From Mycolicibacterium novocastrense (GTDB taxonomy: Bacteria; Actinomycetota; Actinomycetes; Mycobacteriales; Mycobacteriaceae): a DNA stretch of 64,000 nt. Location: positions 62,001 through 126,000 of the forward strand of contig NZ_BCTA01000026.1 of the NCBI RefSeq assembly GCF_001570485.1, written 5' to 3'. Shown here in pieces: positions 770 to 18,619 of this stretch. Under the pieces are notes generated by a model. It was given only the letters and a program-made list of their open reading frames with translations. It did not search any database and was not told the DNA's origin. The translations under genes were made by a program, and so were the position numbers. Position 1 is the stretch's first letter, and every line of letters starts with the position of its first letter.

Positions 770-2245
770 ATGGCGGGATTCCGGCTCACCACCAAGGTGC
801 AGGTCAGCGGTTGGCGCTTCCTGCTGCGCCGCGTCGAGCACGCGATCGTGCGCCGGGACACCCGGATGTTCGACGACCCGTTGCAGTTCTACAGCCGCGC
901 CGTGTCCGCGGGCGTGGTCATCGCGGTGCTCATCTGCCTGGGCGCCGCCCTGCTGGCGTACTTCAAACCGCTCGGGAAGCAAGGGAACGACACGCTTCTC
1001 GTCGATCGCAGCACCAACCAGCTCTACGTGATGCTCCCGGGTAGCGGTCAGTTGCGGCCGGTGTACAACCTGACGTCGGCGCGACTCGTCCTCGGCAACG
1101 CCGGAACCCCGGTGGCGGTGAAATCCGACGAGTTGAACCGCATGCCGAAGGGGCAGTCGATCGGGATCCCCGGCGCGCCCTACGCAACGCCGGTCGGCGC
1201 CGCGAACTCGATGTGGACACTGTGCGACACCGTCACCAAGCCGCAGAGCGTGGCGCCGAACCTGGAGTCGTCGATCATCGTGCGGCCCCTGGTCGCCGAT
1301 GCCTCGGTCGCCCCGATGCGCCCCGACCAGGGCATGTTGGTCTCCTACGAGAACGACACGTGGCTGGTGACCGAAAGCGGCAGACACGACATCGATCTCG
1401 CTGATCGCGCGCTCACCTCGGCGGTCGGCATCCCGGTGACGGCGAGGGCGACGCCGATCTCGCGGGGCCTGTTCAACGCGCTTCCCAACGCGGGTCCGTG
1501 GCGTCTTCCCGACATCCCGTCCTTCGGGGCCCCCAATTCGGTCGGGCTGCCGCCCAACCTCGTGGTGGGCGCGGTGTTCAAGGCGTTGACCGAGGACGGT
1601 GAACAGCATTTCGTGGTGCTGCCCGACGGTGTCGCGCAGATCAACGACACCACCGCCGCTGCGCTGCGCGCGACGAATTCGTTCGGGCTCGTCACACCGC
1701 CGTCGGTGGAGGCCAGTGTGGTCGCGCGGATCCCCGAACACGTCTTCGCCTCACCACTACCCGACAGACCCTTGGAGATCCTGCTGCGCGATGACGCCCC
1801 GACGTTGTGCTGGGCGTGGCAGCGGGAGCCCGGTGATCAGGCGCCGAAGACGACGGTGATCGCGGGGCGGCGACTGCCCATCCCACCATCGGCGATGGGC
1901 ACCGGGATCAAGCAGATCGGCGGTGATGCAACGGTTTACATCGATGGCGGTCAGTATATCCAGTTGCAGTCGCCCGATCCGCGGTACGGCGAGAGCCTCT
2001 ACTACATCGACCCCCAAGGTGTGCGGTACGGGCTGCCGAACGAGGACACCGGCAAGACGCTCGGGCTGACCGGTCCGACCACCGCGCCGTGGCAGGTGGT
2101 GGGACGTCTGGTGGACGGTCCGGTGCTGTCGCAAGAGGCGGCACTGATCGAACACGACACCCTGCCCCCGAACCCCAACCCGCGAAAGATCGGTGGCGAC
2201 TCAACTGCGCAACCGGCCGCGGCCCCGTCCGGAGGCGGCGGATGA
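770..2245 (+). CDS. eccB1: ESX-1 membrane channel component EccB1
   Basis: A 491-aa protein of EccB length. The short cytosolic N-terminus contains the family pattern [16 protein letters not shown]. One transmembrane helix follows at about residues 45-64 ([20 protein letters not shown]), then a long periplasmic domain with two cysteines (WTLCDTV and PTLCWAW), which match the disulfide pair of the family, and a Pro/Gly-rich tail. EccB proteins form the periplasmic face of the ESX core complex with EccC, EccD and EccE. The ATG is 2 nt after eccA1, and the TGA overlaps the ATG of eccCa1 (ATGA), indicating translational coupling. Confidence 0.93.
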
Positions 2246-4473
2246 CCACCAAGAAGTTCACCCCGATCATCAAGCGCGGACCGCGGCTGACACCGGGTGA
2301 GATCAACGTCGCACCGCCCGAAGACCTGGGCGTCGAGATCCCGCCATCGGGCATCCAGAAGGCGCTGCCGTGGGTGATGGGCGGCGGCATGCTCGGCATG
2401 ATCGCGATCATGATCTTCACCGGCATCCGGCAGCTCTCGCCGTACATGCTGATGATGCCGTTGATGATGATCATGGCGACCGTCGGGTTCATGGCAGGGG
2501 GCGGCCCCGGCGGCAAACGCGTTCCCGAAATCAATGCCGACCGTAAGGAATATCTCCGCTACCTGGCCGGGCTCCGCACGCGGGTCACCTCGTCGGCGGC
2601 CGCTCAGGTGACGTTCTTCAACTATCACGCGCCGCACCCAGAGGATCTGCTGTCGCTCATCGGTGGCAACCGCCAGTGGTCCCGGCAGACCAACGCCGAC
2701 TTCTTCGCCGCGACCCGAATCGGACTGGGCACGGAGCCTGCGGTCGACCGACTGCTCAAGCCCGCCGTCGGCGGAGAACTGGCGGGTCCGCAGGGCGCGC
2801 CGCAGCCGCACCTGGAACCCGTGAGCCACATGTGGGTGACGAAGTTCCTGCGCACCCACGGACTCATCCATGACTGCCCGAAACTCCTGCAGCTGCGCAC
2901 GTTTCCGACCATCGCCATCGGCGGCGATCCCGACGGCGCGGCGGGTCTGCTCACGGCCATGGTCTGTCACCTCGCGGTGTTCCACCCGCCGGACCTCCTG
3001 CAGATGCGGGTGCTCATCGACAATCCCGAAGACCCGAACTGGTCCTGGCTCAAGTGGTTACCGCATCTGCAGCATCAGACCGACACGGACGCCGCGGGTC
3101 CCACCCGCATGATCTTCACCCGGCCCGACGGCCTGAGCGACCTGACCGCACGCGGCCCCCACACCGCCGATGCGGCGCCGAGCGGACCCTATGTCGTCGT
3201 CTTCGACCTCACGGGCGGCAAGGCCGGCTTCCCGGTCGACGGCCGGGCCGGCGTCACCGTCATCACGCTCGGCAACCACCGAGGATCGGCGTACCGCATC
3301 CGCGTGGCGGCCGACGGCACCGCCGACGATCGGCTGCCCAATCAGACCTTCCGGCCGATCACCTCGAGGGTCGACCACTTGACGTCGGACCAGGCCGCCC
3401 GCATCGCGCGCAAGCTGGCGGGTTGGTCGATCACCGGCACGATCATCGACAAGAGCGTCCGCGTGCACAAGAAGGTCGCCACCGAGTGGCATCAACTGGT
3501 CGGGGCACAGTCGATCGAGGAGGTGACCCCGGCACGGTGGCGCATGTTCAGCGACACCGACCGCGACCGGTTGCGCATCCCGTTCGGCCATGAACTCAAG
3601 ACCGGCGACATCATGTACCTCGACATCAAGGAGGGCGCCGAGTTCGGCGCCGGCCCGCACGGGATGCTCATCGGCACAACGGGTTCCGGGAAGTCGGAGT
3701 TCCTTCGCACCCTGATCCTCTCGCTGGCCGCCACCCACCACCCCGACCAGGTGAACCTGCTGCTCACCGACTTCAAGGGCGGCTCGACATTCCTGGGTAT
3801 GGAAAAGCTGCCGCACACCGCCGCCGTCGTGACGAACATGGAAGAGGAAGCCGAGCTGGTCAGCCGCATGGGCGAGGTGCTCAGCGGAGAGCTGGACCGC
3901 AGGCAGTCCATCCTGCGCCAGGCCGGTATGCAGGTCGGCGCGGCCGGTGCGCTGTCCGGCGTCGCCGAGTACGAGAAGCATCGCGAACGCGGCGCCGACC
4001 TACCGCCGCTGCCAACCCTTTTCGTCGTCGTCGACGAGTTCGCCGAGCTGCTGCAGAACCATCCCGACTTCATCGCACTGTTCGACCGGATCTGCCGGGT
4101 GGGCCGCTCGCTGCGGGTGCACCTGCTGCTGGCGACGCAGTCGCTGAACACCGGCGGTGTGCGCATCGACAAGCTCGAACCCAACCTCACGTACCGGATC
4201 GCGTTGCGCACGACCAGTTCCGCCGAATCGAAAGCCGTGATCGGCACGCCGGAGGCGCAGTACATCACGAACAAAGAGAGCGGCGTGGGCTTCCTTCGCG
4301 TCGGCATGGAGGACCCCGTCAAGTTCCACAGCGTCTACACCGGTGTCAACTATGTCCCCACATCGGGGCGACAGGACGACGGGGAAGTGAGGCCGCAGGC
4401 CAGACGGCCGAGCCGGCCGCGGATCCGTCCTTTCACCGCGGCGCCGATCCCGGAGACGGCGGTGAGGTCATGA
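2242..4473 (+). CDS. eccCa1: ESX-1 FtsK/SpoIIIE-type ATPase EccCa1
   Basis: 743 aa from the ATG that overlaps the eccB1 stop; an upstream extension to 2089 is open but runs through eccB1. Two membrane helices lie at about residues 38-85, rich in Met and Ile. A central EccC-specific region follows, then an FtsK/SpoIIIE ATPase domain with Walker [10 protein letters not shown] at about 477-485 and Walker [13 protein letters not shown]. In the split ESX-1 EccC this half carries the membrane anchor and ATPase domain 1, and it pairs with EccCb1, which is encoded next with a 4-nt overlap. Together they recognise EsxB and drive export. Confidence 0.94.
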
Positions 4474-6227
4474 GCATCGAACCGGACCAGCGGGTGCTCC
4501 GCGAGGTGGTGCTGGACCAGCTCACCACCGGCGAAGCCCGCGCCTATCGGATGTGGTTGCCGCCGTTGGCCGATCCGACACCGGTCAACGAACTGATCGC
4601 CAACGACCACCAGCGCCAGCCGCTGCGCTTCGGCCTGGGCATCATGGACGAACCGCGCCGGCACCGCCAGGAGGTGTGGGGCATCGACACCTCGTCGGCC
4701 GGCGGCAACATCGCCGTCGGCGGTGCACCACAGACCGGCAAGTCCACCTTCCTGCAGACGCTGATCCTGTCGGCGGCCGCGACGCATACGCCCCGGCAGG
4801 TCCAGTTCTACTGTGTCGACCTCGGCGGCGGCGGGCTGCTCTACCTCGAGGACCTGCCGCATGTCGGCGGCGTCGCGACACGCTCGGAGCCCGACCGGGT
4901 CAACCGGGTCGTCGCCGAGATGAAAGGCGTTCTGCGGCAACGCGAAGCGATGTTCAAACAGTACCGCGTCGGATCGATGGCGGCGTATCGCGAGATGCGC
5001 GACGATGCGAACCACCCGTTGGCGGCCGATCCGTTCGGCGACGTGTTCCTGGTCATCGACGGGTGGCCGGCGTTCGTCGCGGAGTTCGGCGACCTCGAGG
5101 CCGTCGTGCAGGATCTCGCCGGCCAGGGCCTGCAATTCGGTGTGCACACGGTGATCTCCACGCCGCGCTGGACGGAGCTCAAAGCACGCGTGCGCGACTA
5201 CCTGGGCACGAAGATCGAGTTCCGGTTGGGCGATGTCAATGAGACCCAGATCGACCGCATCACCCGCGAGATACCGGCCAACCGACCGGGCCGTGCGGTG
5301 TCGATGGAGAAGCACCACTTGATGATCGGGGTGCCCCGCCTCGACGGTGTGCACAGCGCCGACAACCTCGTCACCGCCATGTCCGACGCGGTTCAGGTGA
5401 TCGCAGCGCGGCACACCGACCAGGCGCCCAAGGTGCGCGTCCTGCCCGAGCGCATCTACCTGCACCACCTGGATCCCAACCCGCCCGGCCCGGACGCCGA
5501 CTACCGCACCCGGTGGACGATCCCGCTGGGACTGCGCGAATCCGACATGGGTGTCGCCTACAACCAGATGCACACCACTCCGCACATGTTGATCTTCGGT
5601 GGCCCCAAGTCGGGTAAAACCCGGATCGCACATGCTGTCGCACAAGCGATTTGCGCTCGCAACAGCCCGGACCAAGTTCGGTTCATGCTGGCCGACTACC
5701 GGTCCGGTCTGCTCGACGCGGTGCCGCAGTCGCATCTGCTGGCAGCGGGCGCCATCAACCGCAACAACGCGAGCCTGGAAGAGGCGATCAAGGCGTTCGC
5801 CATCAACCTGCAGCGCCGCCTTCCGCCTGCGGACCTCACCACGGCCCAGTTGCGCGCCCGGTCCTGGTGGAGCGGGCCGGATGTCGTGCTGCTGGTCGAC
5901 GACTGGCACATGATCGTCGCCGCCAGCGGTGTGGTGCCGCCGATGGCTCCGTTGTTCCCGCTGTTGCCCGCGGCCGCCGATATCGGCCTGCACATCATCG
6001 TCACCTGCCAGATGAGTCAGGCGCACCGCGCCACCATGGACAAGTTCGTCGGAGCCGCGTACGGCGCCGGATCTCCGACGCTGTTCTTGTCGGGGGAGAA
6101 ACAGGAGTTTCCCTCGAGTGAGGTCCGGCTCAAGCGCCGTCCCCCCGGCCAGGGATTTCTGGTCTCACCGGATGGGAAGGAGGTCATCCAGGCGGCTTAT
6201 GTGGACCCCCCAGAAGAAGTTGTGTAA
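4470..6227 (+). CDS. eccCb1: ESX-1 FtsK/SpoIIIE-type ATPase EccCb1
   Basis: 585 aa, soluble, with ATPase domains 2 and 3 of the split EccC. Walker A motifs are [10 protein letters not shown] at about residue 84 and GGPKSGKTR at about residue 377; Walker B-like strands are VFLVIDGW and VVLLVDDWH. In M. tuberculosis this subunit binds the C-terminal signal of EsxB, and the substrate genes follow immediately. The ATG overlaps the eccCa1 stop (ATGA). The 167-nt gap downstream suggests that the PE35 group also has its own promoter. Confidence 0.94.
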
Positions 6228-6735: not shown

Positions 6736-8034
6736 ATGTTCTGGCATGCCATGCCGCCAGAATTCAACACCGCCCGGTTGATGGCCGGCGCCGGAGCGGC
6801 GCCGATGCTGCAGGCCGCCGCGGGGTGGGAGGCGTTGGCGATCTCGCTGGAGACGCAGGCCGACGAACTGGCCGCGAGCCTGGTTTCCCTGACCTCGGTA
6901 TGGAGCGGTGCGGCCAGTGAGCGGGTCGTGGCCGCCACGATGCCGATGGTCGCGTGGCTGCGGACCGTGTCCGCCCAGGCCCAGAAGCGCGCGCTGCAGG
7001 CGACCGCGCAGGCAAACTCCTACAGCCTCGCGATGGCCACCACGCCACCGCTCGCCGAGATCGAGCAGAACCACATCACCCACGCGGTGCTCGAAGCCAC
7101 CAACTTCCTCGGCGTCAACACGGTCCCGATCGGCATCAACGAGTTCGACTACTTCGTCAGGATGTGGAACCAGGCAGCCGGGGCGATGGACGTCTACCAG
7201 GCCGAGACCGCCCTGAACCTGCTCTTCGAACCGATCATGCCACCGAAGCCGATCGTCATTCCCGGTGTGGCCGCCGCAGGCGCGGCCGCCGCGGTCGGGC
7301 ACGCGGCGGCGTCGGCGCCGATGACCGCCATGCGGAACGCCGTGATCACCCAGGTGGGTGTGCAGGCCTCGATGGAGTCGGCGGTGCTGCAGGGAGGACG
7401 CGCGACCGCGCAGATCGGCATGTCGGCCCAGCAGGCCCAGGGTCAGGTCCAGAAATCGGAGAACCTCGCCCAGCGGGCGGCGAGCCCCAATCAGATGACA
7501 CAGCAGGGCATGCAGATGGGCGTGCAGATGGCGTCGCAGCTGGGCTCGACGCTGGCGCAGGTGCCGCAGCAGGGCATGCAGATGGTCATGCAACCGGTGC
7601 AGCAGATGACCCAGCCGTTGCAGCAGGTCACGTCGCTGTTCACCCAGCTCGGCAGCAGTCTGGGCAGCGAGAAGACGCAGGTGGGTCTGGTCGGGGCCAG
7701 CCCGCTGTCGAATCATCCGCTCGCGGGCGGTTCCGGTGCGACCTCCGGCGCCGGCCTCGTGCGTGCCGCGTCGCTGCCCGGTGCCGGCGGGACGATGGCC
7801 CGCACCCCGTTGATGGCCGAACTCATCGGCCAGCCGACCACGGCGTCCGGCGGCGCGGGCGGCGCGGCAGGCGGAAACGGCGCGGGTCTCGCACCGGTCG
7901 GCGCAGGCGGTGGCGGTACCGGACCGATGGGGCACATGGGCCAGCGGGCAAGCAGCGGTGGCAGCAGGAACGGGTTGACGGCGCCGCGGGTCCTACCCCA
8001 GGACCTCGGCGAAGACGAGGACGACGACTGGTGA
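6736..8034 (+). CDS. PPE68: PPE family protein PPE68
   Basis: 432 aa. The PPE domain occupies the first ~175 residues: it begins MFWHAMPPEFNTARL, has a WSGAASE turn (WxG) at about 55, and ends near the WNQAAG segment. The rest is a low-complexity tail rich in Gln, Met, Gly and Ala (repeated QQGMQM units at about 255-290), ending in a very acidic EDEDDDW. The tail is longer than in the 368-aa M. tuberculosis protein. It would be secreted as a heterodimer with PE35 and is encoded directly before esxB. The acidic end may be a recognition element, but that is inference. Confidence 0.92.
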   Translation: MFWHAMPPEFNTARLMAGAGAAPMLQAAAGWEALAISLETQADELAASLVSLTSVWSGAASERVVAATMPMVAWLRTVSAQAQKRALQATAQANSYSLAMATTPPLAEIEQNHITHAVLEATNFLGVNTVPIGINEFDYFVRMWNQAAGAMDVYQAETALNLLFEPIMPPKPIVIPGVAAAGAAAAVGHAAASAPMTAMRNAVITQVGVQASMESAVLQGGRATAQIGMSAQQAQGQVQKSENLAQRAASPNQMTQQGMQMGVQMASQLGSTLAQVPQQGMQMVMQPVQQMTQPLQQVTSLFTQLGSSLGSEKTQVGLVGASPLSNHPLAGGSGATSGAGLVRAASLPGAGGTMARTPLMAELIGQPTTASGGAGGAAGGNGAGLAPVGAGGGGTGPMGHMGQRASSGGSRNGLTAPRVLPQDLGEDEDDDW

Positions 8035-8119: not shown

Positions 8120-8419
8120 ATGGCAATGAATACCGACGTTGCTGTCCTCGCCAAGGAGGCAGCGAACTTCGAACGGATCAGTGGGGAACTGCAGGCCGTG
8201 ATCCGCTACGTGGAGGCGACGGCCGGCTCCCTGCATGTCCAGATGCAGGGTGACGCCGGTACGGCAGCCCAGCACGCCCTGTTGCGTTTCCAGGAGGCGG
8301 CCGATCGTCAGGTCCAGACGCTGACCGACATCTCGGCCAACATCCACACCGCCGGCGTTCAGTATGCCGCGACCGACGACGACGGGGCATCCACGCTGTC
8401 GACGGCAATGCAGTTCTGA
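8120..8419 (+). CDS. esxB: ESX-1 secreted protein EsxB (CFP-10)
   Basis: 99 aa, the usual WXG100 length. It is helical and keeps the C-terminal export signal YxxxD (YAATD at about 82-86) followed by a flexible tail ending AMQF, closely like CFP-10. The central turn has no Trp: the sequence reads MQGDAGTAA where other members have WXG, a departure also seen in some EsxB proteins. It pairs 1:1 with EsxA, and its tail is what EccCb1 recognises. An A/G-rich ribosome site (GAGGAAGAGAG) precedes the ATG. Confidence 0.95.
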   Translation: MAMNTDVAVLAKEAANFERISGELQAVIRYVEATAGSLHVQMQGDAGTAAQHALLRFQEAADRQVQTLTDISANIHTAGVQYAATDDDGASTLSTAMQF

Positions 8420-8446
8420 CCCACTGACACGAACGGAGTACATGAC

Positions 8447-8746
8447 ATGACTGAGAAGGTTTACAACTACGCCGCGATCGACGGTTCGTCATCCGAGTTG
8501 AGCGCCGCCGTCGCCCAGACCGAAGGTCTGCTCACAGAGGGCAAGGGGTCCCTCACCGCACTGGCGGCCGTCTGGGGCGGCGCCAGCTCCGAGGCTTACC
8601 AGGCCGTCCAAATGCGTTGGGATACCGCATCGGCGGAGCTCAACGCCGCACTGAAGAATCTTGCCGCCACCATCCAGGAGGCCGGCGGCACCGGGGGAAC
8701 CATGTTCCAGGCGGACAGGCTCATCGAGAGCTCGTTCGGAGCTTGA
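8447..8746 (+). CDS. esxA: ESX-1 secreted protein EsxA (ESAT-6)
   Basis: 99 aa, WXG100 family, with the WGG motif (WXG) at about residues 43-45 between two predicted helices. It lies 27 nt after esxB, the standard esxBA pair, and forms a heterodimer with EsxB. EsxA is the effector linked to membrane damage in pathogenic species and to ESX-1 function, including effects on DNA transfer, in saprophytic ones. A strong hairpin follows the gene, see 8751-8800. Confidence 0.95.
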   Translation: MTEKVYNYAAIDGSSSELSAAVAQTEGLLTEGKGSLTALAAVWGGASSEAYQAVQMRWDTASAELNAALKNLAATIQEAGGTGGTMFQADRLIESSFGA

Positions 8747-8829: not shown

Positions 8830-10227
8830 ATGTCGGCAGACTATGACCGGCTTTTCCACTCCGCGGGAGACGCTGTCCAGACAGCCGACGACGACGTAGT
8901 GGATCGCGACGATGCCACCGGATCGAAGCCGTCCGCACCGGCGCCCGCAGCGACACCGCCGCCCATCGGCCAGGCTCCCGTCGAGATGACGGGGCCCACG
9001 GTGCCCGTCACACAGACCAAGGTGGGTCAGGCGCCGCCGCCGCAGCCGAACGAGATCACCACGCAGATGCCGGCCGCACGGTCGGCAACGCCTCCGCCAC
9101 AACCGAATTCGATGATGAGGGTGCCGATGAGCGGTGCGCCGGCGGGCGCGCGGTTCGAGCAGGCGCGCTCGGCGCCGCCACAGATGCCGCGGCCGGCGAC
9201 CGCCCCTGCACCCAGCCAGCATTTCGCAGAGCCCCAGCCCGAGACGAGCGGAGCCTTCGTAGCGCCGGCTCAGACATCGGCTGCCACCATCGGCAATCAC
9301 CGCGCGATCGACGCCCTCTCCCATGTGGGGGTGAAGTCGGCGGTGAAGATGCCGTCACAGCGGGGCTGGCGGCACCTGCTCTACTTGCTGACGCGTATCA
9401 ATCTCGGCCTGTCGCCGGATGAGCTCTACGAGATGGAGCTACACAGCCGAATACGGCGGAATGCCAGGGATTCCTACCAAATCGGGGTGTTCGGGCTCAA
9501 GGGTGGCGTCGGCAAGACCGCCGTGACCGTCGCCCTGGGTTCGGCGATGAGCAAGGTGCGGGGGGACCGGATCCTGGCCGTCGACGCCGATCCCGACGGC
9601 GGCAACCTCGCCGACCGTGCCGGACGCCAGTCCGCGGCCACCGTGGCGGATCTTCTCTCCGACAAGGATCTGGCGCGCTACAACGACATCCGCGCTTACA
9701 CCAGCATGAACGCGGCGAACCTCGAGGTGCTCTCCAGCGAGGAGTACAGCGGAGCGCGTCGCGAGTTCAACGACGAGGACTGGAAGGGCGTGACGAACAT
9801 CGTGTCGCGCTATTACAACCTCGTTCTCGCCGACTGCGGCGCGGGGCTGTTTCAGCCCGCTGCCCGCGGTGTCCTGTCGACGGTCTCGGGGTTGGTCATC
9901 GTCGCGAGTGCCTCCATCGACGGTGCGCGGCAGGCTGCGATGACCATGGACTGGTTGCGGCAGAACGGATACCAGGATCTGCTGAGCCGGTCGTGCGTGG
10001 TGATCAACCACACCGTGCCGGGTAAGCCGAACATCGACGTCGAAGACCTCGTCGCACAGTTCGAGCGCCATGTTCCACCGGGGCGGGTGGTCGTGTTGCC
10101 GTACGACAAGCACATCGCGGCGGGAACCGAGATTCAGCTGGACTTGCTGGGCAAGGCATTCCGTCGGCGCACCATCGAGTTGGCCGCCGCCCTGTCCGAC
10201 GACTTCGACAGGCTCGAACGGCGGTGA
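8830..10227 (+). CDS. espI: ESX-1 associated MinD/ParA-type ATPase EspI
   Basis: 465 aa. The first ~150 residues are disordered and rich in Pro, Ala, Gln and Thr. A SIMIBI-class ATPase of MinD/ParA type follows, with a deviant Walker A FGLKGGVGKT at about 220-229 and the DADPDGG motif shortly after. M. tuberculosis EspI is longer (about 666 aa), and the difference looks to lie in the Pro-rich part. EspI is reported to damp ESX-1 secretion when ATP is low in M. tuberculosis. The stop overlaps the eccD1 GTG start (GTGA), so the two are translationally coupled. Confidence 0.87.
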   Translation: MSADYDRLFHSAGDAVQTADDDVVDRDDATGSKPSAPAPAATPPPIGQAPVEMTGPTVPVTQTKVGQAPPPQPNEITTQMPAARSATPPPQPNSMMRVPMSGAPAGARFEQARSAPPQMPRPATAPAPSQHFAEPQPETSGAFVAPAQTSAATIGNHRAIDALSHVGVKSAVKMPSQRGWRHLLYLLTRINLGLSPDELYEMELHSRIRRNARDSYQIGVFGLKGGVGKTAVTVALGSAMSKVRGDRILAVDADPDGGNLADRAGRQSAATVADLLSDKDLARYNDIRAYTSMNAANLEVLSSEEYSGARREFNDEDWKGVTNIVSRYYNLVLADCGAGLFQPAARGVLSTVSGLVIVASASIDGARQAAMTMDWLRQNGYQDLLSRSCVVINHTVPGKPNIDVEDLVAQFERHVPPGRVVVLPYDKHIAAGTEIQLDLLGKAFRRRTIELAAALSDDFDRLERR

Positions 10228-11750
10228 CCTCCACGGCCGCAGCACCATCCGCGTCGGGCGTCACGCCCGGGCGGCCGTCTACCACACGGGTCACGATCCT
10301 GACCGGCCGTCGCATGACCGATCTGGTGCTGCCCGCGGCGGCGCCCATCGAGACCTACATCGACGAGACGGTGGCCGTGTTGGCCGACCTTCTCGAGGAC
10401 ACCCCGAAGGACGTGCTCGGCGGCTTCGACTTCAAGGCGCAGGGGGTATGGGCCTTCGCGAGGCCCGGCGCTCCACCGTTGAAGTTCAACGAATCCCTGG
10501 ACGACGCCGGGGTTGTCGACGGGTCGCTGCTGACGTTGGTGTCGGTCAGCCGCACCGAGCGTTATCGGCCCCTCGTCGAGGACGTCATCGACGCGATCGC
10601 CGTTCTGGACGAGTCGCCGGAGTTCGACCGGTCCGCGTTGAACCGCTTTGTCGGGGTGGCGATTCCGCTCGTGTCGATCGTCATGACCGTGATGGTGTTG
10701 CTGGCGTGGTCGCGGGCCGGACACGACTGGTGGTGGGCGGTCGCGCTCGGTGTGCTGGGGTTGGGTCTGCTCGGCGGCAGTGCGCTGGCGACCAACCGCT
10801 ACCGCAACATCGACCTCGCGGAGAGCCTGCTGATTGCGGCGCTACCTACCCTTGCGGGGGCGGTGGCCCTGGCGGTGCCGTTACCGCGCGGCGCCGCCGG
10901 ACTGGGTGCGCCGCAGATCGCGGGCGCCGCCGCGGTGGTGTTGTTGCTGACGCTGGCCACCCGGGGTGGGCCGCGCCGACGCGCGGAGTTGGCGTCGTTT
11001 CTGGCGGTGACGTCGATCGCGGCGACGGGGGCGGCGATCGCGTTCGGCTACGGCTGGCAGCACTGGGTGCCCGCTGGAGCGCTCGCGTTCGGTTTGATCG
11101 TGGTCACCAACGCGGCCAAACTGACCGTCGCGGTTGCCCGCATCGCGCTGCCACCGATACCCGCACCGGGTGAGACCGTTTCCAACGACGAACTGCTCGA
11201 CCCGGTCGCGGCGTCCGGGAGCGAGGAGGAGTCGCCGACCTGGCAGGCCATCATCGCGTCGGTTCCCGATTCCGCTGCGCGCCTGCACGAGCGCAGCCAG
11301 TTGGCCAGGCGGCTGCTCATCGGGTTCATCGCGGCGGGAGCGCTGGTGCTGTCGGTCGGCGCGATCACCGTTGTGACACAAGGCCACTTCTTCGTGCACA
11401 GTATGATCGTCGCTGGGCTGACCGCGGTGATCTGTGGCTTCCGGTCTCGTCTCTACGCCGAAAGATGGTGTGCCTGGGCGTTGTTGACGGCTGTCGTGGC
11501 CATTCCGACTGGTGTGATGGTTCGGTTGTGCCTCTGGTATCCGGACAAGTCGTGGCTGGTGCTGGCCGTCTACGCGCTCGCGGGGACCATCGCGCTGATC
11601 GTCGTCGGGGCCACCGCGGGCGTGCACCGGATCTCGCCGGTCACCAAACGCATTCTCGAACTGCTCGACGGCGCGGCGATCGCGGCCGTGATCCCGATGC
11701 TGCTGTGGATCGCGGGCGTGTACGACCTGCTGCGCAATCTGCGCTTCTAG
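10224..11750 (+). CDS. eccD1: ESX-1 membrane channel component EccD1
   Basis: 508 aa, GTG start overlapping the espI stop. An N-terminal ubiquitin-like domain (about residues 20-105) is followed by about eleven hydrophobic helices between residue 140 and the end, the hallmark of EccD, which forms the bulk of the ESX inner-membrane pore. It ends 10 nt from the stop of a convergently transcribed kinase gene. In M. tuberculosis espJ, espK, espL, espB, eccE1 and mycP1 follow eccD1; none is seen here. Confidence 0.93.
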   Translation: MTSTAAAPSASGVTPGRPSTTRVTILTGRRMTDLVLPAAAPIETYIDETVAVLADLLEDTPKDVLGGFDFKAQGVWAFARPGAPPLKFNESLDDAGVVDGSLLTLVSVSRTERYRPLVEDVIDAIAVLDESPEFDRSALNRFVGVAIPLVSIVMTVMVLLAWSRAGHDWWWAVALGVLGLGLLGGSALATNRYRNIDLAESLLIAALPTLAGAVALAVPLPRGAAGLGAPQIAGAAAVVLLLTLATRGGPRRRAELASFLAVTSIAATGAAIAFGYGWQHWVPAGALAFGLIVVTNAAKLTVAVARIALPPIPAPGETVSNDELLDPVAASGSEEESPTWQAIIASVPDSAARLHERSQLARRLLIGFIAAGALVLSVGAITVVTQGHFFVHSMIVAGLTAVICGFRSRLYAERWCAWALLTAVVAIPTGVMVRLCLWYPDKSWLVLAVYALAGTIALIVVGATAGVHRISPVTKRILELLDGAAIAAVIPMLLWIAGVYDLLRNLRF

Positions 11751-11760
11751 AAGCGCGAGA

Positions 11761-13785
11761 TCATTGCACTTCGCGGGCCAGTGCCGGTGCGAAGTTGGCG
11801 TCGAGATACCGGCTTGCGAGGTAACCCCCGGCGCCGGTGAGCGCGGCGATGGTGTCGGCTTCATCCACCACGACCATCTTTCCCTGATAGCCGAGGAAAG
11901 GCCTGGGTAAGCCCTCGAACCCGCCTCCGCCGGCCCGGTTGTCGGTGCGGATGACCACGAGTACGTCGGTTTCGATGCGGTAGACACCGGTGGGGTCGGG
12001 CATGGGCCGCGTGTCGCCGGTGTCGGTTCCGGCGCGGACGAGCTCCTGGCTGTAGCGCAGTCCGAGCGCCTCGAGGTAGTCGGCGGCTGTGGACGGGGTC
12101 AGCATCTGCGACACCCCCGTATCCGCGTTGATCACTGCTGCGACGGATTTGCCGATCCACGATGGGTTCTGATTCTTCAGATCGTCCTGCTGCGAACGGA
12201 TGTCGTTGATGAGTTCTCTGGCCTTCGCCTCGTAGCCGAGGATCTCACTGATCCAGACCAGCCGGTTCTGCCACGTCCATTGTTCGGCCGCTTGGTCTTT
12301 CGGCCTGGTCACCGTTGGCGCGATGGCGGCGAGTTTGTCGTAGGTGGCCTGGTCGATGGGGCCGGTGGCAATGATGGCGTCGGGCGCCGCGTCGGCGACC
12401 GCGGCGGTGTTGGTGAATCCGGTCAGCACGGTCGGATCACCGGTCAGTGCCGACTTCTCCCAGCTCGGCAGCGCGCTGGTCGAAGAGCCGATCACCACGG
12501 GTTGCACACCCAGGGACAGCACGGCATCGCCGTCACCGGGGCTCACCGCTGCCACCCGTTGCGGACGAGAGGTGAGTTCGGTGGCGCCGTATTGGTGGGT
12601 GAATGTCTGTGCCTGGTAGGCCGGTTCGTCCGGCCCGCGATCCCACAGCACCACACCGGTGACGCTTGCGGCGACAACGAGCACCGCGACGGCGGCGGCG
12701 ATGAAAGCCCTTTTTCGGCGGCGACTGAGTCGGCCGCCTCCACGTCCGCGCTGCGCGGGGTGTATCGGTGGTGGGTGCTGTGGTGGCGCCCAACCGCTCG
12801 GATAGGTGATCGCATCCGAAGCGCGCGGCGGCCCACCGGGCGTCGGGTACCCCGGCGGTGGGCCGATCGGCTGACCACCGGTGGGGACCGGTGGCCCCCA
12901 CTCGGCCGGCGGTCGCGTGGGGGCTGGTGTGGTCCTCAATTGCACGGTTGTGTCGTCGAGGGCCGCGGCGGCGGCCGCTGCGAGGTCGCCGGCGTTCTGG
13001 AAGCGGTGGTTCGGATCCTTGGCCATCGCTTTGGCGATGACCGCGTCGATCGCCGGCGGCGCGTGGGGTATCCGGTCGGTGACCTTCGGAGGCGGCGCCG
13101 ACAGGTGGCCGGCCACCGTCGCCCCGACGTCGGCGCCCGGGCGGGCGAACGGGGTTTGACCGGTGAGCATCGTGTACAGGCTGCAACCCAGGGCGTAGAT
13201 GTCGGCGCGGTGGTCGGCGCGTTCGCCGGTGAGGGTTTCAGGTGCGGCGTAGGCGATCGAGGCCATCACCATACCGGTCTGCGTCAGCCCCGCCGCCTCA
13301 TCGCTACGCTTGGCTATTCCGAAGTCTGCCAGGAAGATTCGTTGATCGTTGGCCGCCAGCAGAAAGTTCGCGGGCTTGACGTCACGGTGGAGTAAGCCGC
13401 GCTGGTGGGCATAGTCGAGCGCGTCGGCCACCGCTGCGGTGATGCGCAGCGCGCGCGCCGGCGTCATGCGTCCGGCCTTCAGCTCGCGGTGCGCATCGCT
13501 GCCATCGACGTACTGCATGGCGATCCACAGGTGTCCATCGGGGGTTTCGCCACGGTTGTAGACCGACACGATGTGGGGGTGATCCAGTGTTGCGGCCAAC
13601 TCGGCCTCGCGAAGAAACCGGTCGCGAAAGTGCTTGTCCAAAGACAGGTCTGACGACAACACCTTGAGAGCGTCCGAGCGTGGCAGGGTGGGGTGGGCGG
13701 CGCGATATACCGTGCCCATACCGCCCCTGCCGAGAACCGCTTCGATACGGTAACCGGCCACTGTTGAGCCCACGCCGAGCGCCAT
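11761..13785 (-). CDS. Receptor Ser/Thr protein kinase with extracytoplasmic substrate-binding (FecB-like) domain
   Basis: 674 aa. The kinase domain spans about residues 12-270: Gly-rich loop GRGGMGTVY at 19-27, ATP lysine K41, catalytic loop HRDVKPAN at 133-140 with D135, DFG at 154-156, activation-loop threonines T168 and T170, then APE. A Pro-rich juxtamembrane stretch (290-345) leads to one transmembrane helix at about 359-381. The outer half, about 393-674, has the layout of iron-siderophore or cobalamin periplasmic binding proteins: a P-x-RVAAVSPGDGDAVLSLGV opening, an alternating alpha/beta pattern and a long connecting helix. All catalytic residues are present, so it should be active. 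The ATG has a GAGGGAA ribosome site. The family assignment of the outer domain is by eye and the ligand is unknown. Confidence 0.85.
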   Translation of the reverse strand: MALGVGSTVAGYRIEAVLGRGGMGTVYRAAHPTLPRSDALKVLSSDLSLDKHFRDRFLREAELAATLDHPHIVSVYNRGETPDGHLWIAMQYVDGSDAHRELKAGRMTPARALRITAAVADALDYAHQRGLLHRDVKPANFLLAANDQRIFLADFGIAKRSDEAAGLTQTGMVMASIAYAAPETLTGERADHRADIYALGCSLYTMLTGQTPFARPGADVGATVAGHLSAPPPKVTDRIPHAPPAIDAVIAKAMAKDPNHRFQNAGDLAAAAAAALDDTTVQLRTTPAPTRPPAEWGPPVPTGGQPIGPPPGYPTPGGPPRASDAITYPSGWAPPQHPPPIHPAQRGRGGGRLSRRRKRAFIAAAVAVLVVAASVTGVVLWDRGPDEPAYQAQTFTHQYGATELTSRPQRVAAVSPGDGDAVLSLGVQPVVIGSSTSALPSWEKSALTGDPTVLTGFTNTAAVADAAPDAIIATGPIDQATYDKLAAIAPTVTRPKDQAAEQWTWQNRLVWISEILGYEAKARELINDIRSQQDDLKNQNPSWIGKSVAAVINADTGVSQMLTPSTAADYLEALGLRYSQELVRAGTDTGDTRPMPDPTGVYRIETDVLVVIRTDNRAGGGGFEGLPRPFLGYQGKMVVVDEADTIAALTGAGGYLASRYLDANFAPALAREVQ

Positions 13786-13856
13786 CTGTATGTTCCCTCG
13801 CTATGTTCGGTTCAGCGTATTCTCCGGCCGTGGACCGGTCGCTGGAGCCGGCCCGC

Positions 13857-15143
13857 TCACGCGGCCGTCAGCATGACGTATTGCGCGGCGGTCAACTGAT
13901 GAGCATCGGTCGGCTGCGGTGAGGCCGCTTCGATGACATACCGGTCGGCGACTGCGAAGCACGTGACGTAGGTGCTGAGTTGCGCCTCGCGCCGGATGCA
14001 GCGCGAATCGGGCATGTTCGGGACGGATGCGACCGCCTGGCCTTTCGCGTCTGTCAACTCGGTCGCGAACTGCTCGAGCATGTTGGCAGCCGATTGCTCG
14101 TCGCGGACGCGGTACACCGCGGCTCTACCCCTGGACCACACATCCATTCCGGTGTCGGCGAACAACTCCGCCGAAGTCTGCGGGAACGTCTGGAAGTGCG
14201 GAGCGGCGTGCGGACCGTAGGTCTGGTTCACACCGGGAGGCGGGTTCTCCTTGATTTCTGGAACCGTACGCGCCAAGACTCCGCTCGCATCCACCGGGAG
14301 ATTGGCGAGCTCCGATACTGCGGTAGGTGTGAACGCGTCGATCGCTGCGATCTGCTGATCCAGCGTCTTGGCGACCATGTCGGCGGTCGGGTCCACCCCG
14401 TCAGGGGATTCCGCCGACTGAACGAGCACGAACGGCCCGTGCGCCGTATAGGCGTTGACGTTGGTTTCCATGATGGGTGAACCCAATTGAGGGAGGTCGT
14501 ACGTGGAGGCGCGAGTCTCGGGGTGCTCGCGCACGGAGACGGGTCGGGCTTGGGGCACGTAGTCCATGAGGTCGGGCTGCAATGTGATGTCGCCGAACTC
14601 GGCGGCCGCGGCTGCGGCTGCCTGGGGATCGGGGAACCGCAACACCGCGTTGACGAGGCTTGCGCGGTCGGGCTCGGTGCGCCGGGCCGAGCTGAAACCC
14701 GTGACGAAGTTGTGCTTTGCCGCGGCCGCCGCGACCTTTTCGGGCAGCAGCATCTTGAGCGCCGCAACGTCTTTCACGATGCTGGTCGGCATGACAAAGT
14801 GCGAGAGTTCGGGGTTGACCTCCCACGGCCCGACGACGTGGTCGGCCATCCGCCCGGCCTCGATCAGCCCGCCCTTTGCCGGACTGCCTGCGACACCCAT
14901 GGGAGGGACGGGTAGCGTGGCGTAATTGCCGGTGTCGAGCAGAGCCACGTCGACCGAGGGCCCCGATGATTCCCCCGGTGGCCGCTGCGCCGTTCCGTCC
15001 ACCACGGCGGTGCACGCTGTGGCGGTCAGCAGCGCAGCCACCAGGCCCGCGCCGAACGCCGCACGGCGCGACCGATGCGCCAGTAGCGCGCTGAAGGTGG
15101 CACTGGATGGGCCCGCTGTCGGTCGGTGCGGGAAGAACCTCAT
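13857..15143 (-). CDS. DUF7373-like secreted lipoprotein
   Basis: 428 aa from the ATG at 15143; a longer frame to 15194 is open but lacks support. A -10 hexamer (15151-15156) lies 7 nt upstream, so this ATG fits a leaderless transcript. A basic N-terminus and hydrophobic segment lead to a lipobox-like LLTATAC at about residue 44, after which Cys would be acylated and the protein anchored outside the membrane. The body resembles the mycobacterial DUF7373 lipoproteins, with two related halves and a cysteine pair near the C-terminus (SRCIR and VTCFA). Function is unknown. It lies between the kinase and the PknH-like sensor lipoprotein on the same strand. Confidence 0.75.
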   Translation of the reverse strand: MRFFPHRPTAGPSSATFSALLAHRSRRAAFGAGLVAALLTATACTAVVDGTAQRPPGESSGPSVDVALLDTGNYATLPVPPMGVAGSPAKGGLIEAGRMADHVVGPWEVNPELSHFVMPTSIVKDVAALKMLLPEKVAAAAAKHNFVTGFSSARRTEPDRASLVNAVLRFPDPQAAAAAAAEFGDITLQPDLMDYVPQARPVSVREHPETRASTYDLPQLGSPIMETNVNAYTAHGPFVLVQSAESPDGVDPTADMVAKTLDQQIAAIDAFTPTAVSELANLPVDASGVLARTVPEIKENPPPGVNQTYGPHAAPHFQTFPQTSAELFADTGMDVWSRGRAAVYRVRDEQSAANMLEQFATELTDAKGQAVASVPNMPDSRCIRREAQLSTYVTCFAVADRYVIEAASPQPTDAHQLTAAQYVMLTAA

Positions 15144-15150
15144 AAGCCGT

Positions 15151-15156
15151 ACATTA
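15151..15156 (-). promoter_or_regulatory. -10 hexamer of the DUF7373-like lipoprotein gene (leaderless)
   Basis: On the minus strand the hexamer reads TAATGT and ends 7 nt before the ATG at 15143, placing the likely transcript start at or next to the start codon. Confidence 0.55.
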
Positions 15157-15227
15157 GCGGCACATGTGCCGTACGACGCGCTCGATCGCCTCACTGCGAC
15201 CGACCGCTGCGGTATGCGGTGACGAGG

Positions 15228-15962
15228 CTACGACGGCACTTTGGCCAGTATGCGATCGGTGAGCGTGTTGGCCGGGGCCGTGCTGTCACCGTCGGTGCAG
15301 ACGACGACATCGACAAGCACGTTGGCCCGGTGTGCGACCACGTGGTGACAGTTGCGTGGCAGCCCGTCGCGCTGGAAGGTCGTGCCGATGCGGTCGGGCC
15401 CGGTGGTGACCGGATAGGGCACCCAACGCTGGACGTTGTCGGGGCCGAGCTCGATGAAGAAGATGTCGCCGTCGGGGCAGTTGCGCCATTCGTGTTCGAT
15501 GATCCACATCGCCTCACCTTGACCCGTGATGTCGGCGGGGTTTTCGAAGACGGCAACCATCTGTGTGACCGCCTGTCCCTGCGTACCGCGATTGGCATTG
15601 CCCACCACGGTCGGCTTCTTCGCCCAGACCCCGGTCTCGCCGGCCAACGCGCGCGATCGGCACGGCCACGGCTCGATGTCCACGTTCGACCGCTGCGCCT
15701 CGGTGTAGGCCTGCGTTTCGACGAGATCGGTGTCGCCGATGATGGCGCCGAGTTCGCTGCGTTTGAGCAGCAAGTCGCCTCCCGCTGCCGCCGGCACCAG
15801 CGTCGGTGTCGGCGTGGCGGTAGTCGTCGAGGGGGTCGCTGGCGCCGATTGCGTTGTCGGCACGGGGCTTTCGGCCCGTCCGGCATCCCCGTCGACGGTA
15901 GCCGAGCACCCGGCCAACACCACGACCGCACACACGGCCACACCGGCGTGGATGGATCCCAT
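15228..15962 (-). CDS. Lipoprotein with PknH-like extracellular sensor domain
   Basis: 244 aa. A signal peptide ends in the lipobox VLAGC at about residues 15-19, followed by a Thr/Pro-rich linker (about 30-55). A globular domain follows with four cysteines (PWPCRS, RNCPDG, RNCHHV, VVCTD), the pattern of the PknH C-terminal sensor domain with its two disulfides. Family members such as LppH, LprH and LpqQ are free-standing lipoproteins carrying the same fold. The ATG has a good GAAGGGAA ribosome site. It lies 30 nt downstream of the membrane-anchored protein with the same domain, so the two are likely co-transcribed and may be paralogues. Confidence 0.8.
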   Translation of the reverse strand: MGSIHAGVAVCAVVVLAGCSATVDGDAGRAESPVPTTQSAPATPSTTTATPTPTLVPAAAGGDLLLKRSELGAIIGDTDLVETQAYTEAQRSNVDIEPWPCRSRALAGETGVWAKKPTVVGNANRGTQGQAVTQMVAVFENPADITGQGEAMWIIEHEWRNCPDGDIFFIELGPDNVQRWVPYPVTTGPDRIGTTFQRDGLPRNCHHVVAHRANVLVDVVVCTDGDSTAPANTLTDRILAKVPS

Positions 15963-15992
15963 TGCTGCGTTCCCTTCAGATCATCGGTCGGG

Positions 15993-17168
15993 TTATGGCG
16001 CCGGGGCGATCTTGTCTGCGATCGCTCTTGCGATCGAGAGCCCCGCGCTGCCGACGGTCGGCGAGCACGCACGGACATCGACGACCACGTTGCCCCGCAC
16101 GGTCATATCGCGCTCACACTGCTGACCGGCGGTCTTCGAGGTCGTGGGAATGATCATCACCGACAGGATGTCGCCGGTGAACGCCGGGACGCCGATGTCG
16201 GCCTCGGTGACACCGCCGTACTCGTACCTGATGTGTTCGGATTTGCAGACATTCCACGCAACACCTTGTGCGATGTAGAACTCCTTGGCCGAGGTCGTAT
16301 CGGGGAACGAGACGACGGCCTGCACGACCTTGTGCGTCGGGTCGGCGTTTATCCCCTGCACGGCCACGCCGGTGAAACCCGATCCGCGGTAGGTGACCTC
16401 GTAGGCGGGACCCCATGCGCCGGTGCAGCGTTCAGGCGTGGCGGCGCCGGGCAGCAGTCGGTGTACGACCGGCCCGGCTGCCATGCCGGGGGCGTTCATC
16501 CGTTGGCTCACCTGCTCGGGGGGCAGCAGCAGTCCGGGCAGCGCTTCCACGGCGAGGACCGGCCCGGGTGGCGGTGGTGGCGGCGCAGCCGGGGGCTGCG
16601 GCGGCGCGGCGGTCGGGGTGGCAGGCACGGTGGTGGTGGGACCAGCGGGCACCTGCGCCGGACTGGTCGGGGGCCCGTCGTCGGAGGAGCTGTCGTTCCC
16701 GCCGCTGACCGCGACGAGCACGATGACCAGAACGACGACGAGGGCTGCGGCACCGCCGATGACCCACCAGCGATGCTTCGAAACCCGTTCCGCCAGTGTG
16801 GGTTTCACCACGGGATTGATGGCCGGCGGGCGCTGAAATGCGGCGGGTCCGGGCACCGGCTGCTGGTAGGGCGCAGCGTACCCGCCCGGTCCGGGCTGGT
16901 GGGGTGGCGCGGCCCAAGGCGTAGGCCCGGCCGGGCCCGACGAAACCGGCGGAGGACCGCTCGGAGGAGCGGACGACGGGGGTCGCTGCTGTGAGCGGAG
17001 GAATTGCGCTGCGTCCAAGGTGGTTTCCTCGTGGAAGCCGCGTGGCCTCGCCGGGGTGGGCCGGGTGGCCTCCTCCTCCGGCGGCGTCTGTGCCGGCGGG
17101 TTCTGACCGATCGGCCAGTCCGTCGTCTCCTCACCGCGAGGCCCGCTGTCCGGGTCGTTCGCGTTCAT
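15993..17168 (-). CDS. Membrane-anchored PknH-like sensor domain protein
   Basis: 391 aa. A cytosolic N-terminus of about 130 residues is rich in Pro and Gly and carries a short acidic EETTLDA motif (T49, T50). A transmembrane helix lies at about 134-154 and a Pro-rich linker at 165-205. The outer domain has four cysteines (PERCTG, WNVCKS, QQCERD, VRACSP), as in the PknH extracellular sensor. There is no kinase domain, so it looks like a receptor that keeps only the outer sensor and a phosphorylatable tail. The ATG follows a GAGGGGCGG ribosome site. The 284-nt gap upstream is shared with the divergent FHA-HTH gene. Confidence 0.78.
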   Translation of the reverse strand: MNANDPDSGPRGEETTDWPIGQNPPAQTPPEEEATRPTPARPRGFHEETTLDAAQFLRSQQRPPSSAPPSGPPPVSSGPAGPTPWAAPPHQPGPGGYAAPYQQPVPGPAAFQRPPAINPVVKPTLAERVSKHRWWVIGGAAALVVVLVIVLVAVSGGNDSSSDDGPPTSPAQVPAGPTTTVPATPTAAPPQPPAAPPPPPPGPVLAVEALPGLLLPPEQVSQRMNAPGMAAGPVVHRLLPGAATPERCTGAWGPAYEVTYRGSGFTGVAVQGINADPTHKVVQAVVSFPDTTSAKEFYIAQGVAWNVCKSEHIRYEYGGVTEADIGVPAFTGDILSVMIIPTTSKTAGQQCERDMTVRGNVVVDVRACSPTVGSAGLSIARAIADKIAPAP

Positions 17169-17452
17169 ATCCGCCCCTCACCATTCGGTGTTCTGCGCCC
17201 ACTACGTCGGTCGGTCCACACGGGCTGGGCCAACCCAAAAATCATCGCATGAACCATCGCACCGCCAGTGCACAAATTTCTCCGGCTCGGGTGCCCACTG
17301 CGAAGAATGGCGGCTTCAGCAGCGTGAACAGCGGGATACGATGGGCACACATCGTTGCTGGATTCGCGGCGAAACCATAGCGTCGAGGCGTCAAACGATC
17401 GCATTGGCGTCCCTTCGCTGACCACCCCCAGCGAGCTGTGCGAGGAGGCTTC
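17169..17452. promoter_or_regulatory. Divergent promoter region between sensor gene and FHA-HTH regulator
   Basis: A 284-nt non-coding stretch, the largest in this half of the window, with a lower GC content in its middle (about 17220-17400) than the flanking genes. It holds the ribosome sites of both divergent genes (AGGAGG at 17443-17448 on the plus strand). No operator repeat was clear by eye. The FHA-HTH protein is a plausible regulator of this region. Confidence 0.5.
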
Positions 17453-18619
17453 ATGGATGAGGGAAGACCAACGGTCCTCGGCGCGACAACCGGGGATCTG
17501 CCCTCCCTGGTGATCACGGTCGCCGGCAGCGACTACACCGCACACCCCGGTGATGGAGTGGTCACGATCGGGCGCGAATTACCCGCGCAGATCCGCGTCA
17601 GCGAGCCGGGGATCTCCCGCACGCATGTCCGGATCGAACCCGCAGGCGACCACTGGAACCTTGTCGACTGCGGTAGCAGAAACGGCACATATGTCGGAGG
17701 ACAGCGCGTCGATTCCGTCGTCCTCGACCGCGAGGTCAGCGCATATCTGGGCAACCCCGAAGGCATCTTGGTTCGGGTGAGCCCTCGGCCGCGCACGCCA
17801 GCCGCCGGGACCGAGACGTTCGAAGGCCCGCCCACCGACGAGCAGGAACGCGACGACGCGGACGCCACCGAGCGCTCCACTGACGACCCAGCCGACGATC
17901 CCGGCGATCAACCCGATCCCGACATCGCGCGCGCAGGGGCCGCCGTGGCAGCGCGGCGTGAGGAACTGGGGCTGTCTCAGCGCAAACTCACCGACGACCA
18001 CGTCATCAGCCAAAGCGTGCTGGTCAAGTTCGAGCGCGGCAGGCATTGGCCACGCGAACGCACTCGCGCCAAGATCGAGGAGTACTTGCATTGGGCGCCG
18101 GGGACACTCGCGCGGATCAGGGCGGGGGAGCCGGTTCCCGAGGAAGACACCACCGAGGCGATCACGCCGACCGTTCAGGTGGCGATTGCCATCGACGCGG
18201 CCGACATCGCGCTGCGCGGAATCTATGCGCGGGCCGCGCTGCTGCCCATGGGCGACGACCCGCGTTTCGCCGGTGAAGCGGCCGCGCTGCTGGCCGAACT
18301 GCGCCGCCTGGAGACATCGCTGACCAACGCCGCGCGGACCGCCACCGGCCGGCCCGAGCTGGCGATCACGCTGGGTGAGGTTCGGCGGGCGTACACCGAT
18401 CTCGTGCGGCGCGCCGCGGCCGCCCCGACGGCGACACTCGGTCAGCGGCTCTACATGGCCCGCCACCATCGCCAGCTGACGGTGCAGGAAGCCGCCAATG
18501 CCGCCGGCGTATCGGCATCCGACGTCACCAATGCAGAGTCCGAAAGCGCGGTGCCTGATCCGGTCGCGGCGACCCTGCAGCGGTTCGTCGACATGCTCGA
18601 GCGGCCCGCAGAGCGGTGA
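17453..18619 (+). CDS. FHA domain protein with two HTH (XRE-like) segments
   Basis: 388 aa from ATG 17453, chosen because AGGAGG lies 4 nt upstream; a GTG at 17438 overlaps that site. The FHA domain (about residues 20-105) keeps the phosphothreonine-binding signature: GRE, SRTHVRI and SRNGTYV. An acidic, disordered linker follows (about 110-160). Then come an XRE-type helix-turn-helix (RREELGLSQRKL, with SVLVKFERG) and, near the C-terminus, a second related one (RQLTVQEAANAAGVSASDV). A protein that reads phosphothreonine and binds DNA is a natural output for the receptor kinase encoded about 4 kb away. The functional link is inference from context. Confidence 0.8.
   Translation: MDEGRPTVLGATTGDLPSLVITVAGSDYTAHPGDGVVTIGRELPAQIRVSEPGISRTHVRIEPAGDHWNLVDCGSRNGTYVGGQRVDSVVLDREVSAYLGNPEGILVRVSPRPRTPAAGTETFEGPPTDEQERDDADATERSTDDPADDPGDQPDPDIARAGAAVAARREELGLSQRKLTDDHVISQSVLVKFERGRHWPRERTRAKIEEYLHWAPGTLARIRAGEPVPEEDTTEAITPTVQVAIAIDAADIALRGIYARAALLPMGDDPRFAGEAAALLAELRRLETSLTNAARTATGRPELAITLGEVRRAYTDLVRRAAAAPTATLGQRLYMARHHRQLTVQEAANAAGVSASDVTNAESESAVPDPVAATLQRFVDMLERPAER

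Follow-up and report, generated by a model that had tools for sequence, protein, structure and literature searches.

What does a bacterial receptor kinase perceive when its outer half resembles the binding proteins of iron uptake, and to what does it report? The question is raised by a minus-strand gene in a 64,000-nucleotide stretch of the Mycolicibacterium novocastrense genome (contig NZ_BCTA01000026.1, positions 62,001 to 126,000; the window in what follows), which an earlier, sequence-only reading had singled out as encoding a kinase with a siderophore- or cobalamin-type binding protein as its sensor. Here we argue that this kinase is likely to sense a ligand and to signal by phosphorylation, probably via an EspM-like FHA regulator encoded nearby to the genes of a type VII secretion system, a reading to which we attach a probability of about 0.45.

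The underlying observation, a receptor kinase with a binding-protein-type outer domain, is confirmed. Pfam places Pkinase over residues 12-262 (1.2e-43), and K41, E60, HRD, K137, N140 and DFG are invariant in all 31 aligned sequences, identifying the protein as a Hanks-type Ser/Thr kinase; in the activation loop, T168 is found in 31 of these sequences and T170 in 25. The nearest solved chain to the kinase part is 7naa, followed by PknE and PknB. One hydrophobic segment (residues ~357-384) follows the sequence RRRKR and, by the positive-inside rule for membrane orientation, the C-terminal 284 residues would be extracellular. Within them Peripla_BP_2 (PF01497) matches residues 411-577 with 44.3 bits against a cut-off of 27.5 (1.9e-11), and structure prediction returns a complete, full-length class III binding-protein fold, the nearest folds being those of the haem and siderophore binders FecB2/MhuP, PiaA, SirA, HtsA and FecB. 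The sequence-only reading, which had described a complete kinase, a single membrane helix and an outer domain of the FecB/BtuF class, and had asked for a hidden Markov model search and a structure prediction, is borne out on each of these points. Both domains occur together in 115 of 120 relatives among the matches listed. The protein belongs to neither of two familiar receptor kinase types: the PASTA kinase model of the PknB type (NF033483) scores 279.7 against 450 bits, over the kinase part only, with no PASTA domain in the Pfam scan of the protein, and the PknH sensor domain (PF14032) is absent from the kinase chain, being carried by two separate neighbours.

Class III binding proteins dock onto their permeases through two glutamates (Glu119 and Glu262, as proposed, in PiaA; Glu74 and Glu202 in BtuF) that act by salt bridges to the permease (PMC3741162). 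We compared the outer domains of 30 kinases of the family with 27 stand-alone binding proteins (two from the same genome, five from Pseudonocardia/Actinomadura and 20 hand-picked from the stand-alone rows of a scan of the genus), numbering positions within the domain (position + 390 gives the residue in the full protein). At position 71, the place of PiaA Glu119, an acid is present in only one of the 30 kinase domains (that of locus L034) compared with 25 of the 27 stand-alone proteins (Fisher 8.6e-13, uncorrected for shared ancestry), and the window kinase has alanine. PiaA Glu262 maps to position 208. At this C-lobe site an acid at 209 is found in 4/30 kinase domains versus 21/27 stand-alone proteins, and any acid at 208-210 in 11/30 versus 25/27; the window kinase reads Pro-Thr-Gly there. 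In a tree whose rooting is provisional, one branch (99/99) has the 30 kinase domains together on the same side, and the stand-alone protein nearest to them (L002) sits on a very long branch.

Two simple interpretations of the outer domain were rejected. A role as a functioning transport protein is contradicted by the lost N-lobe docking acid and by the scan of 21 neighbouring open reading frames (770 to 31841), in which no ABC permease or ATPase family was found. That it is a remnant is contradicted by the intact predicted fold and by the 65 of 284 positions that are kept in at least 90% of 30 sequences. It looks like a sensor with a ligand of its own rather than a transporter component and, because the whole binding-protein fold is predicted and the N-lobe docking glutamate has been lost, the kinase is likely to be a ligand sensor.

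With the cleft loops assigned from the predicted secondary-structure string, 17 of 45 cleft-loop positions are kept at ≥90% in the kinase domains, compared with 48 of 239 elsewhere (p 0.010), and the enrichment is also seen in the ≥95% class (p 0.041); strict invariants, counted by eye, are not enriched (6/45 versus 30/239). In the stand-alone set the corresponding ≥90% figures are 1/45 and 30/239. Positions were called kinase-specific where one residue occurs in at least 27 of 30 kinase domains and the same residue in no more than two of 27 stand-alone proteins. There are 18 of these: Q3, A23, G27, T103, W113, W121, S175, Y180, Y188, R223, T224, D225, G230, G231, P237, G245, D251 and L271. 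An equation of R223 with a ligand arginine of CeuE was dropped for want of secure residue numbering. Amongst the tryptophans, W505 is invariant in the kinase domains, W503 is present in 29 of 30 and W442 in 28. Because this partly kinase-specific set of cleft-loop residues is kept, a ligand of some kind remains likely on the sequence evidence.

Three kinases from a second genus of the same family, with Pkinase and PF01497 both above their cut-offs, extend this picture. Their outer domains are 31-32% identical and their kinase parts 50-51%, and all three keep G27, D28, P50, W52, W113, W115 and R223-T224-D225, together with G229, G231, G232, G235, P237 and D251; none has an acid at 71 or at 208-210. 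We read this as one conserved cleft core, distinct from that of transport proteins and common to both genera. These data bear on the best-surviving alternative, namely that the outer domain is a protein-protein receptor onto which the DUF7373 or PknH_C proteins encoded upstream would dock as the true sensors, with no small ligand involved. We think this unlikely: the predicted cleft loops hold more than their share of the residues kept at ≥90%, and the second-genus kinases retain the cleft core although DUF7373 was not found in the stretches read around them.

The sequence-only reading had proposed instead that the kinase reads iron-siderophore, haem or corrinoid directly, such that ferri-siderophore or haem bound in the cleft would report iron to the kinase. 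The nearest folds listed above are in its favour, haem binding by FecB2 and by FecB falls in the micromolar range (PMC10553834), and W505, W442 and W503 could stack on a ring. The FecB2 pocket residues Tyr39, Trp58 and Phe59 (PMC10553834) map to positions 26, 45 and 46, however, and these are aromatic in 0/30 kinase domains compared with 23, 23 and 18 of the 27 stand-alone proteins. Position 26 is proline in 26 kinase domains, serine in three and arginine in one, and the window kinase, with Pro and Ser at the Tyr39 and Trp58 positions, lacks these two pocket residues of FecB2-type haem binders. Further, position 87, to which the N-lobe arginine of SirA is assigned on sequence grounds, holds Ile, Leu, Val or Met in 30/30 kinase domains, though FecB and FecB2 are also without that arginine, and no iron-uptake family was seen among the neighbours scanned. 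The pocket changes are not decisive, since in FecB2 haem affinity falls by only 1.5-fold with Tyr39Ser, 1.4-fold with Trp58Ser and 1.2-fold with Arg184Ser (PMC10553834), so that haem could still bind where such residues are lost. We nevertheless regard a direct iron sensor as quite unlikely. The earlier reading had made its case depend on a fold match and on the pocket being kept in close homologues: the fold was found, the pocket residues known from iron carriers have been lost, and a partly kinase-specific cleft-loop set is kept.

If the kinase senses a ligand, its neighbours suggest where the signal might go (Table 1). The sequence-only reading had overlooked the operon, the EspM-like regulator and the link to ESX genes.

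Table 1. Features of the receptor kinase locus and its surroundings (window coordinates)
Feature	Position	Strand	Basis
Receptor kinase gene, 674 amino acids	11761..13785	-	Open reading frame list, Pfam scan
Hanks-type kinase domain (residues 12-262) with an intact catalytic set	13000..13752	-	Pfam Pkinase, alignment
Activation-loop T168-Q-T170, candidate autophosphorylation and FHA-docking site	13276..13284	-	Alignment
Pro-rich linker, residues 285-356	12718..12933	-	Sequence
Single membrane helix region, residues 357-384	12634..12717	-	Hydrophobic segment
Outer FecB2/FhuD-fold sensor domain, residues 391-674	11764..12615	-	Pfam, structure prediction
A461 (domain position 71), where PiaA has its permease-docking N-lobe Glu119	12403..12405	-	Alignment
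R613-T614-D615, strand end, ahead of Gly-rich loop; kinase-family specific	11941..11949	-	Alignment, structure prediction
DUF7373 protein (PF24088/PF24092), 71 bp upstream of kinase	13857..15194	-	Pfam
PknH_C (PF14032) protein with lipobox-like LAGC	15228..15962	-	Pfam
PknH_C protein, first gene of apparent operon	15993..17168	-	Pfam
Divergent intergenic region, 269 bp	17169..17437	.	Open reading frame list
EspM-like regulator, FHA and two HTH domains	17438..18619	+	Pfam
eccD, convergent with kinase, stops 10 bp apart	10224..11750	+	Pfam, curated model
espI	8830..10227	+	EspI N-terminal model, 34.2 vs cut-off 30
Two 99 amino acid open reading frames in esxB/esxA place (by place and size, no family scan)	8120..8746	+	
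PPE protein	6736..8034	+	Pfam
eccB, then two FtsK/SpoIIIE-domain genes in eccCa and eccCb places	770..6227	+	Pfam

Four minus-strand genes, from 17168 to 11761, encode in order two PknH_C proteins, the DUF7373 protein and the kinase with gaps of 30, 33 and 71 bp, and appear to form a single operon. The N-terminal domain of the DUF7373 protein is predicted to adopt the PknH sensor fold. The first PknH_C protein has no kinase domain but has a hydrophobic stretch ahead of its PknH_C part; the LAGC of the second resembles a lipobox. The presence of two PknH_C proteins without kinase domains (15228-17168) amounts to a split-off PknH-type sensor layout. No sigma-70-type promoter match was found in the divergent intergenic region, and a promoter and terminator scan of 11700-17500 gave nothing above shuffled sequences.

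The regulator across this divergent region carries an FHA domain (2.1e-13) followed by HTH_3 and HTH_31, the N-terminal FHA/C-terminal HTH layout of EspM, and matches the EspM model over its full length (E-value 3.8e-91). Its residues G45-R46, S60-x-x-H63 and N82 are those we take to be usual in FHA domains. On the other side of the kinase lies an ESX-1 locus, with eccB, eccC-type ATPases, PPE, espI and eccD in order and esxA and esxB assigned by place only.

The same neighbours recur around related kinases. In the genus, 71 putative kinase loci were found in 68 genomes, and neighbours were counted in listed rows only, so that the counts are lower bounds. A DUF7373 gene lies within 5 kb in at least 62 of the 71 loci (0.34 expected at 2.65 per genome), always on the same strand as the kinase (62/62; 52 upstream, 10 downstream), and a tblastn match to the window DUF7373 gene stands beside the kinase in 26 of 29 named loci (not in L013, L025 or L026). 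An EspM-like gene lies within 15 kb in at least 46/71 loci (0.86 expected), and eccD in at least 17/71 within 15 kb (1.6 expected) and at least 22/71 within 30 kb (3.1 expected). In the second genus, the one-strand stretch L060:1-6269 shows the tail of eccD, a subtilase gene (PF00082) in the place of mycP, eccE (PF11203) and then the kinase; at L061 and L062 the contig end is too near upstream to show ESX genes. The strongest indication against a chance ESX link is this repeat in a separate genus. A further alternative takes the protein for a general envelope kinase that hitch-hikes with ESX loci and acts on substrates outside secretion, and takes the EspM-like gene for an unconnected neighbour. 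It is very unlikely, for whilst in 49 of the 71 loci no eccD is listed within 30 kb and mycobacterial kinases have numerous substrates (PMC6213207), eccD linkage is some tenfold above chance at 15 kb and the kinase directly follows eccD-mycP-eccE in the second genus.

Several observations weigh against the ligand sensor reporting to secretion genes that we favour. On the sensor side, the cleft loops come from predicted secondary structure rather than coordinates; 11 of 30 kinases retain an acid at the C-lobe docking site; and the stand-alone set was chosen for likeness to the sensor, its transport role being presumed, and excludes the PF01497 matches L001 and L005 of the same genome, which gave no profile match. 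The second-genus kinases have also changed positions 30 (Glu for Asp), 38, 39, 88, 103 and 121 (Tyr/Phe/Phe), as well as 180, 188, 230 (Asn), 245 and 271, and DUF7373 was not found in the stretches read near them. On the output side, the regulator's score of 305.7 bits falls short of the 550-bit cut-off of the EspM model NF052403, and a second EspM, lacking an FHA domain, is encoded at the same ESX-1 locus (C26:56852-57595, ~4.4 kb before the window); M. smegmatis EspM likewise has no FHA domain (PMC7002343). Finally, the loci share ancestry, so the linkage counts are not independent, and neither linkage is obligatory, because 25/71 loci have no listed EspM-like gene and 54/71 no listed eccD within 15 kb, of which contig ends and incomplete lists account for only some.

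How the favoured ligand sensor might work can be sketched by analogy. In the PknH-EmbR system, pknH adjoins embR, and EmbR is phosphorylated by way of its FHA domain (PMC7785237). EspM is a repressor of whiB6, and regulation has been suggested to act at its FHA domain, with no kinase or partner named for that domain in the available text (PMC7002343, PMC11005418). In our locus, a polar extracellular ligand, or a PknH-type protein encoded upstream, would bind the cleft that contains R613-T614-D615, the Gly-rich loop and W503/W505. Binding could alter dimerisation and trans-autophosphorylation at T168/T170, the phosphothreonine would dock the FHA domain of the EspM-like regulator as in the PknH-EmbR model, and the HTH part of the regulator might then alter transcription of the operon and of the nearby ESX genes. 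We infer every step from the signal onward. The fullest form of this scheme, which we consider doubtful, is a ligand-gated switch for type VII secretion: aided by detached PknH-type sensors, a retooled iron-carrier-binding receptor kinase would phosphorylate itself, and an EspM paralogue would recognise it through its FHA domain and set ESX expression.

Compared with FecB2/MhuP (Rv0265c) and other class III iron-carrier binders (PF01497), the outer domain is fused to a kinase via a membrane helix, has lost the N-lobe docking acid, has replacements at the Tyr39 and Trp58 positions and carries the kinase-specific R613-T614-D615, W503, W511 and D641. As in PknH-EmbR, a receptor kinase is encoded near an FHA-bearing transcription factor, and the kinase's apparent operon also codes for PknH_C sensor domains; here, however, PknH_C is on separate proteins, the sensor on the kinase is PF01497 and the regulator is EspM-like. 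Like EspM, that regulator has FHA then HTH across the full model and lies beside the ESX-1 locus, but it falls under the cut-off and is on the kinase side, with the FHA-less EspM elsewhere at the same locus.

Solute-binding proteins have been linked to Ser/Thr kinases before, in precedents that the sequence-only reading omitted. GlnH-GlnX-PknG is a proposed case of a mycobacterial Ser/Thr kinase driven by a solute-binding protein (PMC6069109), but this system comprises three proteins and an amino-acid binder, whereas here binding-protein fold and kinase share one chain. Direct fusions occur in a Streptomyces kinase (Gln/Glu-binding domain) and a Nostoc kinase (ANF-receptor domain), which use other binding-protein families, no PF01497 being noted in the available text (PMC1262709). 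The earlier statement that no mycobacterial receptor kinase is known to have been characterised with such a sensor agrees with our search of open-licence papers, in which no description of a PF01497 receptor kinase was found. Such proteins are already entered in databases as serine/threonine-protein kinase, some of them with a substrate-binding half, so that as far as we have seen the class is known to annotation and undescribed in print.

What switches on bacterial Ser/Thr kinases has been called an outstanding question (PMC6069109), and a foldable, binding-protein-type sensor opens it to a plain ligand screen. Because an FHA regulator and ESX genes are linked to it, the kinase is a concrete candidate partner for the EspM FHA domain and, if the fullest form of the scheme is correct, it would be the kinase input so far missing for EspM proteins with an FHA domain. 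It would also illustrate a route from transport protein to receptor in which the fold is kept, docking to the transporter is lost and the cleft is rebuilt.

Matches of this class were found in 68 of 297 genomes of the genus (counted by eye from a sorted list; E-values 3e-135 to 1e-68), the next match, a second piece in G056 aside, being to stand-alone proteins at 6e-34; the open frame is shorter than 600 amino acids in four of the 68 (G015, G268, G166 and G056). A scan of 397 genomes across the order gave 14 matches at E≤1e-45, confined to 2 of the 85 genera. A genome-contig scan, restricted to two peptide patterns, returned 34 loci, 29 of them mycobacterial, with the kinase part directly upstream of the sensor part in 29/29, and five with a match to the sensor part only. 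Two kinase copies are present in each of the genomes G096, G117 and G214, and in Mycolicibacterium frederiksbergense a kinase of the family (L021) is on a plasmid record.

Some further features of the surroundings deserve mention. The EspM-like gene is followed by one for a putative neutral zinc metallopeptidase (PF04228; 18710-20188), and the pair is kept in L006, L007, L008, L022, L027, L033 and L034. Two close relatives have an extra PknH_C gene between kinase and eccD (L007:10906-11484 and L008:10720-11397). The only other DUF7373 match in the genome (G000:C26:48632-49225) has an FHA gene ~1.9 kb away and, at 7 kb, two kinase genes, which by place and size we take to be fhaA and the pknA/pknB cluster.
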